From Halobacillus kuroshimensis DSM 18393 (lineage in GTDB: Bacteria > Bacillota > Bacilli > Bacillales > Halobacillaceae): a stretch of 64,000 bases of DNA. The stretch lies in NCBI RefSeq assembly GCF_000425705.1, contig NZ_AUDY01000013.1, positions 1 to 64,000 of the forward strand, read 5' to 3'. Position numbers and translations under genes: made by a program. A model generated the notes under the pieces. The model worked only from the letters and a program-made list of their open reading frames with translations, was not told the origin of the DNA and did not search any database. Shown here in pieces: positions 31,612-34,354 of this stretch (the first letter of the stretch is position 1; every line of letters begins with the position of its first letter).

Positions 31612-31620
31612 TCAGAAGAA

Positions 31621-32034
31621 GGCCCGGGACACTCCCGGGCCTAAGCTTGTAGAGAAACCTTTTTTCTAATAACTGCAAAGGGCGGGCCAATTCTTGGTCA
31701 CGGATAGAATTTTTCCAACGCAAGCAGTAGTAACGCAGCCAGTACTGTTCTTTTAAAACGGCGAAAGAGCTATGCTCAACGTTCTCTTTTATCATAGGGT
31801 AAAGCTGTTTCCACACAGGCATCGGCACGAGGAGCGTTCGGTGGTGACGCCTGCGGGAACAGTGCGAGCCGAAGATCCACTTGGTCCAATGGTTTTCTTG
31901 ACCAAGTTAGCTGAGGCCGTGCCCGCGGCAAGCATCCACCGATAAGTGGAACGTGCCCCCTCATCACGACAGGACAACTCTAACTGGATAACACGGATTT
32001 TTCTACAGCCTTAGGCCCGGGATGCTCCCGGGCC
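31621..32034 (+). mobile_element. Copy E of the dispersed repeat, long form, flanked by duplicated terminator hairpin
   Basis: The palindromic core (31822-31957) has left arm GGAGCGTTCGGTGGTGACG and right arm CAAGCATCCACCGATAAG. A further ~180 bp on the left is shared with copy F. Left end CTTGTAGAGAAA and right end TTTTTCTACAG are inverted repeats. Outside them lie two copies of a GC-rich terminator hairpin, GGCCCGGG-N5-CCCGGGCC (31621-31641 and 32014-32034; 19 of 21 bp equal). Confidence 0.85.
31642..31828 (-). pseudogene. Short degenerate ORF in the long arm of copy E
   Basis: Within copy E about 62 codons stay open (starting MPVWKQLYPMIKENVEH, containing KEQYWLRYYCLRWKNSI). The corresponding part of copy F has the same start, MPVGKQLYAMINEK, but is shifted by 2 nt after about 17 codons. 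There is no ribosome site. It looks like a relic of a coding region carried by the element; no family recognised. Confidence 0.3.
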
Positions 32035-32042
32035 TTTCTCGT

Positions 32043-32717
32043 TTACTGCTCCTCTTCCCTTTCATCCATTTCATCCATGTACTTATCATAATGCTCATTT
32101 CTTTGGAAGGAGACACCATCCGCTCCCGTATAGCCGTTCATATCCGTCGAAACAAACGACTCGAATTCTTCTGCATAGCCGACACCGTCCTGATTGTCCA
32201 TAAGGGATGAATCATCATAGGTCATGCTGCTTTGATTGAAGGAAGCCACCTGCTCATAAGCATTCTGTTCATTATATTCAGGATCATCCGAGTCTCTTCC
32301 GTAGTCATTCTCAAGATGAGTCAACACGTCCTGTTCGACCGGAGGGTCAGAGGGAACCTCCTCATTCGGTGATGCATCCGCAACGGTCCGTGCTGTCGGG
32401 AGAGCTTCCAGTCGCTCCGCAGGAATCTGCTGCCCCGTTACTTCACAAATGCCGTACGTCCCGTCTTTTATCTGCTGAAGCGAATATTCAATGTCCTGTA
32501 ATTCTTCTTTAAAATGAGCAAGCAGGGCCATATCCTTTTCCCTTTCATACAACTCTGTCCCTGAATCCGCGGGATGATTGTCGTACTGTGACAATTCACC
32601 CGAGGCCATATCACTCGCAAATCCCCGCTTCAGGCCATACTGGTCATCATCCATCATCTGCTGTTCCAATTCCTTCTTTCGGTCTTCCAACTGCTTTTTA
32701 TATTGAATATAATCCAT
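32043..32717 (-). CDS. YteA-like DksA/TraR family protein lacking zinc ligands
   Basis: 224 residues: a coiled-coil N-terminus (QYKKQLEDRKKELEQQMM), then the DksA/TraR finger region GTYGICEVTGQQIPAERLEALPTA (about 88-111). The usual C-x2-C pair is reduced to one Cys (CEVTG) and no second pair follows, so zinc cannot bind as in classical DksA. The C-terminal half is acidic and Gln/Asp-rich. Similar YteA/YocK-type proteins occur in Bacillaceae, some sporulation-linked. Function unknown. GGAG precedes ATG by 9 nt. Confidence 0.8.
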   Translation of the reverse strand: MDYIQYKKQLEDRKKELEQQMMDDDQYGLKRGFASDMASGELSQYDNHPADSGTELYEREKDMALLAHFKEELQDIEYSLQQIKDGTYGICEVTGQQIPAERLEALPTARTVADASPNEEVPSDPPVEQDVLTHLENDYGRDSDDPEYNEQNAYEQVASFNQSSMTYDDSSLMDNQDGVGYAEEFESFVSTDMNGYTGADGVSFQRNEHYDKYMDEMDEREEEQ

Positions 32718-32779: not shown

Positions 32780-33208
32780 AAGGGAGTGCTCTAATAAGAG
32801 CACTCCCTCAGCTAGAAACCCTTTTTCTAGTGACTCCAAAGGAGCGGGCACCAATACTTGATCATGGATAGGATCTTTCCCACGCAAGCGGCAGTAACGC
32901 AGCCTGTACTGTTCTTTTGAAATGGCGAAGGAGCTATATGCTCATCTTTCTCATTTATCATAGCGTAAAGCTGTTTTCCCACAGGCATCGGCACGTGGAG
33001 CGTTCGGTGGTGACGCCTGCGGGAACAGCGCGGGCCTCAGCTAACTTGGTCCAATGGTTTTCTTGACCAAGTTGCTGAGGCCGTGCCCGCGGCAAGCATC
33101 CGCCGATAAGCGGAACGTGCCTTCTCAACACGACATACGGACAACTCTAACTGGATAGGACGAGATTTTTCTACAGACTAAGGGAGTGCTCTAATAAGAG
33201 CACTCCCT
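32780..33208 (+). mobile_element. Copy F of the dispersed repeat, long form, with exact hairpin duplication
   Basis: An identical 29-bp segment, a terminator hairpin GGGAGTGCTC-N6-GAGCACTCCC, flanks the element (32780-32808 and 33180-33208). The left copy keeps the A-run on its left (CAAAAA) and the right copy the T-run on its right, as if one bidirectional terminator had been copied and pushed apart. The 371 bp between them carry a left arm homologous to copy E, the palindromic core (32988-33121) and the right end TTTTTCTACAG. No intact ORF. Confidence 0.9.
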
Positions 33209-33217
33209 TTTTTCTTG

Positions 33218-34354
33218 TTATTTTCTTAAGGCTTGGAGGAAATCTTCCTTCAAATCTTCAATATCTTCCAACCCGATGGACACGCGGACAAGACCCTCCG
33301 TAATGCCAAGCTCTGCCCGGCGGTCTTCAGGGATGGACGCGTGAGTCATTTGGGCAGGTACAGAAATGAGACTTTCCACAGCTCCAAGACTTTCCGCCAG
33401 CGTAAAATAGTTCACATGGCGGAGCACCTTGTCGGCTTTTTCAGCGGTGCCGACGTCAAAACTGATCATACCACCGTTTCCGCCTGCCTGTTTCGTGTGT
33501 ACATCATGACCATTATGCGAAGGAAGCCCTGGGTAGTAAATGTCCGTGACTTCCGGAAGTTCCTGAAGAAACTCGACAAACTGCCGGGTATTCTCTTCAA
33601 TTTCCTCCATGCGGATACCGAGGGTTTTGATTCCTCTCATTAACAGCCAGGAATCTTGAGGTCCGAGGATTCCACCTGAAGAATTCAACACAAAATGAAC
33701 GTCTTCTGCCAGCTGTTCGGAATTTACTACGACAAGCCCGGCGACGACATCGCTATGGCCGCCCAGATATTTCGTCGCGCTGTGCAGGACGATATCCGCG
33801 CCGTGCTCCAGTGGATTCTGCCAGTATGGTGTACTGAAGGTATTATCCACGATGAACGTTAAGTCATGCTTTTTCGCAAGCTCTGCCGTTTGATTAAGGT
33901 CGGTAATTTTCAGCAGTGGATTGGTCGGCGTTTCGACGTAGACCGCTTTCGTACGATCCGTGACTGCCGCTTCGATATTCGCCGTATCACTCGTGTCCAC
34001 AAAACTCGCTTCCAGGCCGAAGCGGTTGATCACTTTGGACACGAGACGGTACGTACCGCCGTACACATCGTCGGTAAAAATGATGTGATCTCCGTGATTG
34101 AAAGTCATCAGGACCGCCGTAATAGCAGCCATCCCAGAACCGAAGGCAAAACCGCGGTGCCCGCCTTCCAGATCTTTAATCAGTTCTTCCAAGGCAAAAC
34201 GGGTCGGGTTGCCTGTCCGCGAATATTCATACCCGCGGTGCTGCCCCACGCCATCCTGAGCATACGTGCTGACCTGGTAAATCGGCACACTGACCGCTCC
34301 TGTTTTTTCATCTCCTGTAATACCACCGTGAATCAACTGCGTTTTTTTCCTCAT
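33218..34354 (-). CDS. mccB: Cystathionine gamma-lyase / homocysteine gamma-lyase
   Basis: 378 residues, Cys/Met metabolism PLP enzyme: YEYSRTGNPTRFALE at the N-terminus, AFGSGMAAI, and the PLP lysine in SATKYLGGHSDVVAG (about residue 195). In B. subtilis MccB (YrhB) cleaves cystathionine to cysteine in the reverse transsulfuration pathway. It lies 4 bp after mccA and is the last gene of the operon; the bidirectional terminator follows. Confidence 0.93.
   Translation of the reverse strand: MRKKTQLIHGGITGDEKTGAVSVPIYQVSTYAQDGVGQHRGYEYSRTGNPTRFALEELIKDLEGGHRGFAFGSGMAAITAVLMTFNHGDHIIFTDDVYGGTYRLVSKVINRFGLEASFVDTSDTANIEAAVTDRTKAVYVETPTNPLLKITDLNQTAELAKKHDLTFIVDNTFSTPYWQNPLEHGADIVLHSATKYLGGHSDVVAGLVVVNSEQLAEDVHFVLNSSGGILGPQDSWLLMRGIKTLGIRMEEIEENTRQFVEFLQELPEVTDIYYPGLPSHNGHDVHTKQAGGNGGMISFDVGTAEKADKVLRHVNYFTLAESLGAVESLISVPAQMTHASIPEDRRAELGITEGLVRVSIGLEDIEDLKEDFLQALRK

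Follow-up and report, generated by a model that had tools for sequence, protein, structure and literature searches.

The DNA analysed here, referred to as the window, is a stretch of 64,000 nucleotides from contig NZ_AUDY01000013.1 of Halobacillus kuroshimensis DSM 18393. It carries a 371-bp element (32809–33179) which sits at the intrinsic terminator of an mccB-like gene and has the entire terminator hairpin on both sides. We consider it very probable that this element is a miniature derivative of an insertion sequence (IS) of the IS1182 family and that the hairpin itself is its target-site duplication, with a length set by the hairpin. Most cut-and-paste transposases generate a short duplication of a fixed length. 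In the relatives of the element, the duplication (15–35 bp) follows the hairpin and is not an enzyme constant. An earlier note, made from the sequence alone, had suggested a long target-site duplication produced by an element that targets terminator hairpins, and both the empty sites and the variety of the hairpins described below support this suggestion.

The 29-bp segment at 32780–32808 is repeated exactly at 33180–33208, as the earlier note had described, and the match is not extendable at either end by even one base. The 29-mer was found twice on the plus strand of the window and not at all on its minus strand. Each copy contains the hairpin AGGGAGTGCTCT-AATA-AGAGCACTCCCT with a stem of 12 bp and a loop of 4 nt, which yields −13.7 kcal/mol when folded as DNA (z = −8.0 relative to shuffled sequences). 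The asymmetry of the AATA loop shows the two hairpin copies to be true direct repeats. AAAA stands directly before the left hairpin, which begins at 32781, and TTTTT directly after the right one, which ends at 33208; this agrees with the distribution of the A-run and the T-run that had been noticed before. The hairpin is located just past the stop codon of the mccB-like gene and upstream of the yteA-family gene. As both genes are on the minus strand, it is the terminator of mccB only, and the previous idea of a terminator shared by the two genes, as between convergent genes, had to be abandoned.

That the hairpin is the target-site duplication was demonstrated directly for intact relatives by pairs of filled and empty sites. 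Three copies of an intact 1660-bp IS are present in Thalassobacillus devorans (G027). It is a single-gene element with the terminal inverted repeats CAGCTTGTAGAGAAAC / CAGGCTGTCGAGAAAG at the boundaries common to the three copies. Its transposase (456 aa, start codon TTG) matches PF05598 and PF13751 (DUF772 and DDE_Tnp_1_6) and scores 487.4 bits with NF033551, the model of the IS1182 type (cut-off 270). Each of the three copies lies between exact duplicates of a different hairpin, and the duplicates measure 28–31, 28–30 and 22 bp, the ranges resulting from ambiguous border bases. In the sister genome G022, the sites of two of them (L140 and L141) are empty and contain one hairpin each, whereas T. 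devorans has the arrangement hairpin–IS–hairpin there. A related 1551-bp IS (485.6 bits with NF033551) occurs in G046, which belongs to another family of the same order; nine of its ten copies have hairpin duplicates of 21–26 bp and the tenth has lost its left end.

The same arrangement was found in a wider survey, in which contigs were scanned with two transposases and the best 80 of 495 confirmed stretches were taken as loci. Both IS ends were located by motif in 76 of the 80 loci; at 8 of these 76, one side extends past the end of a contig. Hairpins were present at both junctions in 54 of the 76 loci, and the left and right hairpins matched in 44. These 44 copies come from 26 source organisms of five phyla (Bacillota, Pseudomonadota, Lentisphaerota, Ignavibacteriota and Thermodesulfobacteriota); the phyla were taken partly from record titles, and one of the 44, L179, belongs to the T. 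devorans copies described above. Exact duplications of 15–35 bp were found in 41 of the 44 copies, and their lengths differed from the hairpin lengths by −2 to +2 bp (r = 0.98). The controls gave a hairpin at 135 of 2280 random positions, 10 alike among 2862 cross-paired hairpins and, when left flanks were compared with right flanks of other loci, no repeat of at least 14 bp beside inverted ends in 1501 comparisons. The 11 copies of a single IS in Bacillus sp. OV166 have duplications ranging from 19 to 33 bp, which is unlike a fixed stagger. Of the 44 pairs, 43 had an A-run in front of the hairpin or a T-run behind it (5 or more of 9 bases), compared with 509 of 2400 random places; such runs are a mark of intrinsic terminators. 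Hairpin sequences thus vary between copies, while the two that flank any one copy are mostly alike, which is the check that the earlier note had proposed.

Orthologous mccB–yteA intervals of relatives provided a further comparison. Thirty loci were fetched, and the 27 with a yteA-family gene in range were compared. A long direct repeat (at least 16 of 20 bases) was detected in three intervals, exactly those with an element (the window's genome, G014 and G020), and the best direct repeat in the remaining 24 reached at most 15 of 20 bases. The sister genome G014 has the same insertion with both hairpins kept and a 20/20 repeat like that in the window's genome. In G020 (L087), an element is flanked on both sides by a terminator hairpin of another sequence (18/20 repeat), and the ends of this element look by eye like decayed IS1182 ends. 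G020 is an independent hit on the same orthologous terminator and hence a case of repeated targeting of one site. A hairpin with a T-run was found within 110 nt of the mccB stop codon in 22 of the 24 element-free intervals (the exceptions being G024 and G028). In all three element-bearing intervals, no T-run follows the near hairpin, an absence demanded by the duplication model. A stricter hairpin finder, which gave exactly one hairpin in 11 of the 27 intervals, was superseded by the direct-repeat search and the laxer terminator search. Together with the two single-hairpin sites in G022, the 24 intervals lacking a long repeat represent the empty sites that the earlier note had called for.

The window element is, as judged from its sequence, a non-autonomous miniature inverted-repeat transposable element (MITE) derived from an IS1182-family insertion sequence. 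The earlier note had recognised a repeat element and left its family unnamed. The element has kept the IS ends (left, CAGCTAGAAACC, decayed; right, CTACAGACTA) and a piece of the transposase C-terminus (32822–32968; 47% identity to the T. devorans IS1182 transposase, E 1.2e-6, with internal stops), which mark it as a miniature, transposase-less derivative that arose from the transposase gene by deletion. In the element copies L004, L005 and L006, the end is identical to that of the intact T. devorans IS over 16–18 bp. A PF13751 search of the window's draft genome detected no intact transposase gene and no autonomous partner, only 5 fragments with open frames of 55–66 aa; the intact relative belongs to another genus of the same family. 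As the search of the draft genome detected fragments only, the element would be mobilised in trans by a transposase. Like other bacterial MITEs, it is short, non-coding and present in many copies, and it has the ends of a full IS and a remnant of the transposase gene. It differs from them in its duplications, which are hairpin-sized and variable, whereas MITE duplications are normally short and of fixed length.

Such a duplication could arise as follows. The transposase would recognise its target in folded form, most likely as an extruded cruciform, and the two IS ends would be transferred to the 5′ foot of the hairpin, one on each strand; these feet, 20–30 bp apart in linear DNA, would be adjacent at the four-way junction, and gap repair would then copy the hairpin to both sides of the insert. 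For a duplication to result, each transferred end has to be joined, on its own strand, to the 5′ side of the stretch that is doubled. If that stretch can be a hairpin of whatever length, the enzyme must be sensing the hairpin feet, and since the 5′ feet are neighbours in a cruciform, a duplication varying from 15 to 35 bp is compatible with a fixed geometry of the enzyme. Structure recognition also fits the finding that the IS itself can end in a strong hairpin: this holds for the end on the side of the transposase start in 34 of the 76 loci and for the opposite end in 9 of the 76 (control 40/2400). Strong hairpins at one end were seen in L139, L180, L219, L222, L245 and others, in several cases followed by a T-run, and many ISs of the surveyed group seem to carry their own terminator at one end.

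It is possible, though rather unlikely, that the same element makes the same duplication by recognising the hairpin as single-stranded DNA, on the lagging strand at a fork or in a transcription bubble. Hairpins do fold on single-stranded DNA at replication forks, and the terminator-like targets (43 of 44, against 509 of 2400 random places) are sites where RNA polymerase opens the DNA. The symmetric joining at the 5′ feet is, however, explained most simply if both strands are folded together, and the same outcome is drawn from a cruciform by Wan et al. 2017 (PMC5678879).

Two other explanations of the paired hairpins were found to be very improbable. Tandem terminators occur in bacteria, and the insertion might have fallen between two tandem hairpins that were already there, or later gene conversion might have produced the second one. 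However, a long direct repeat was found in only 3 of the 27 mccB–yteA intervals, always with an element between its copies, the 41 exact direct repeats adjoin IS ends, and the empty sites have one hairpin, which refutes this explanation for L140 and L141. The chances are equally slight that the duplication was made by an IS30-type element like IS1630 of Mycoplasma fermentans, which was reported to target and duplicate inverted repeats (Calcutt 1999, cited in PMC3317919). In strain M64, four of the seven IS1630 copies have duplications of 16, 23, 25 and 26 bp (PMC3317919). IS1630 resembles the present elements in the long duplication of inverted repeats but has an IS30 transposase instead of an IS1182 one, and neither a miniature form nor a link to terminators is seen in the available text. 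Against such an origin, NF033551 places the transposase of the intact relative in the IS1182 type, and its NCBIfam matches include no IS30 model. The earlier note was right that the duplication is long, being hairpin-sized (15–35 bp) in the relatives, yet its length is not without precedent, as IS1630 shows. That the hairpin is a part of the element and travels along with it, as the hairpins at both junctions of 54 of the 76 IS copies and at 38 of the 53 ends in the window's genome might imply, is the least credible view of all and was refuted by the empty sites in G022, which already have a single hairpin, and by the variation in hairpin sequence among the copies of one IS.

Several observations do not fit well the conclusion that an IS1182-derived element duplicates its target hairpin. 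The hairpins did not match in 10 of the 54 copies with hairpins at both junctions. Among three Dechloromonas copies (L213, L214 and L215), the left and right hairpins stand in permuted pairings, a pattern that points to recombination of the copies with one another or to misassembly; this reading covers three of the ten non-matching pairs. No hairpin was found at one or both junctions in 22 of the 76 loci (8 of the 22 run off a contig), and the hairpins flanking L194 have loops that are reverse complementary to each other. Only 6–9 bp are duplicated at seven loci (L196, L197, L200 and L202–L205), and L206 looks like a hairpin replacement. Other IS1182-type groups (G027b, G027c and G048) also look like replacement or are ambiguous, and hairpin duplication is therefore not family-wide. 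Finally, the left end of the window copy is decayed, so that the automatic pairing of ends left this copy unpaired. In L255 and L192, the two hairpin copies have drifted apart. Apart from these considerations, the permuted pairs in L213–L215 indicate that hairpin pairs could serve to detect rearrangements.

Hairpin replacement in the G048 and G027b groups is only suggestive. At least 5 contiguous complementary bases were found just outside the ends in 5 of 9 G048 copies (a count that omits copy L169) and 3 of 9 G027b copies, the two groups covered by this count, and some of these complementary stretches are A/T-runs; the five G027c copies gave no clear pattern. In Paenibacillus apiarius (L200 and L202–L205), a 6-bp duplication lies in a palindrome, with the arms ACTGC-N6-GCAGT in three of the five sites and partial arms in two. 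A duplication of the loop only fits these sites but was not adopted, because the shared arms mean that a sequence-specific target explains them equally well. A transposase tree was built from 41 of 52 rows, the other 11 being left out because of internal stops. The four rows of the loop type form one clade (100/100), four of the five rows of the replacement type are set apart by a single long branch of unsure placement, and the hairpin-duplicating rows need 3 changes, so that they are not one clean clade.

The closest known systems are IS1272 and TnSha1, which share with the present elements the IS1182 family and a hairpin target, often a terminator, without a primary sequence consensus (PMC4923244, PMC5678879). 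They differ in replacing or deleting the stem-loop without duplication (Furi et al. 2016, PMC4923244), whereas here the whole stem-loop is kept and duplicated, being present twice at the filled sites and once at the empty ones. According to the cruciform model put forward for IS1272, the stem-loop is deleted when the IS ends join its 3′ feet, would be duplicated if they joined its 5′ feet (pathway b) and would have its loop duplicated if they joined there (pathway c); the available text reports stem-loop replacement and some non-palindromic targets but no case of duplication (Wan et al. 2017, PMC5678879). The whole stem-loop on both sides of the insert, as drawn for pathway b, was found in 41 exact cases with the hairpin length within 2 bp. 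Duplications of 4 bp are listed for ISPse1 and ISCaa15 of the IS1182 family (PMC3281130, PMC3196728), and hairpin duplication is accordingly not a property of the whole family. The family was described as mixed, with or without duplication or deletion and with sequence or structure as the target (PMC12056078). It is also among ten families over-represented between convergent genes (PMC9208149), as would be expected for terminator targeting. The available parts of the literature searched contained no account of an IS1182 element duplicating a whole hairpin, and a mention in Calcutt 1999, IS reviews or ISfinder is possible.

The hairpin-duplicating IS1182 insertions are natural cases of the outcome drawn as pathway b, and a wider claim of structure-directed integration is plausible. 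In its full form we put this claim forward tentatively, aware that it may well prove wrong: IS1182-family transposases would be structure-directed integrases which read a four-way junction, the stagger being set by the target hairpin, and the branches of the family would attack different feet of the cruciform, so that IS1272 replaces the hairpin, the large branch duplicates it whole, and P. apiarius and its kin duplicate only the loop. The hairpin at the donor IS end and the target may then be seen as the same kind of structure.

The features of the window are listed in Table 1. A second copy of the element (31620–32035 with its hairpins) is located between convergent genes. The stem AGGCCCGGG / CCCGGGCCT is found on both of its sides, and its sequence is unlike that of the mccB-site hairpin. 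At this second site, visual inspection of 13 relatives showed a terminator-like hairpin past the yteA-family gene and no recognisable element within the 150 nt viewed; G014 has two hairpins around an element. In the window and G014 taken together, all four stems are intact and all loops differ, which is expected if the hairpins of the second site remain in use.

Table 1 Features of the window at the two element copies
Feature	Position	Strand	Basis or remark
Left hairpin, second copy	31620..31642	.	loop ACACT
Second element copy	31643..32012	.	sequence match
Transposase C-terminal remnant, second copy	31688..31804	-	51% identity, E 0.002
Right hairpin, second copy	32013..32035	.	same stem, loop ATGCT
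yteA-family regulatory protein gene, downstream of mccB, same direction	32043..32717	-	TIGR02890
Left hairpin copy, mccB terminator	32781..32808	.	exact repeat 32780-32808
Element body	32809..33180 (371 bp if ending 33179)	.	last base possibly part of the repeat
Transposase C-terminus remnant	32822..32968	-	residues 403-447 of T. devorans IS1182 transposase
Palindromic core, approx. 128 bp	32992..33119	.	repeat matches
Right terminal inverted repeat	33166..33179	-	matches AGNYTGTAGARAAA
Right hairpin copy, then T-run	33181..33208	.	exact repeat 33180-33208
Bifunctional cystathionine gamma-lyase gene (mccB-like), terminator = target	33218..34354	-	NF005810

When the element and its hairpins were searched for in the window's genome, at least 49 matches were obtained (from the scoring of 40 among 111 candidates), some of which are the palindromic core alone and two the hairpin itself. 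Perfect IS ends number 53 in this genome (1 with the reversed-pattern control), and a hairpin abuts 38 of them (random positions 181/2880). Eight of the 15 ends without a hairpin belong to short palindromes of two facing IS ends, which resemble the left-end hairpin of the intact IS. Two ends were found in 22 of the 31 loci of miniature copies, including one wrong pairing of ends from two neighbouring copies (L133); hairpins were present at both ends in 14 and matched in 10. The palindromic core (32992–33119) also occurs without IS ends at many places in the window's genome and in several relatives of the same family. It seems that either a miniature IS absorbed the core or the core absorbed IS ends. 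A structured RNA was considered and not adopted: Rfam gave one weak match, tsr24 (31837–31944; 26.2 bits against a gathering threshold of 50). This S. aureus family overlies the palindromic core of the second copy. Matching hairpins together with element halves were noticed at contig ends (the end of C12 and the start of C9, the end of C2 and the start of C7), which suggests that C12/C9 and C2/C7 are neighbours split by element copies.

An insertion of this kind spares the coding sequence and leaves a hairpin on either side, which explains a class of repeats located at gene ends without gene disruption. That a single IS makes duplications of 19–33 bp, with the target hairpin dictating the length, provides strong evidence from nature that integration takes place in folded DNA, and the cases described here supply natural examples for a branch of the model that had previously only been drawn. 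The intact IS and the pairs of empty and filled sites make the mechanism testable. For annotation, an insert framed by two copies of a terminator hairpin is suggestive of an IS1182-type insertion.
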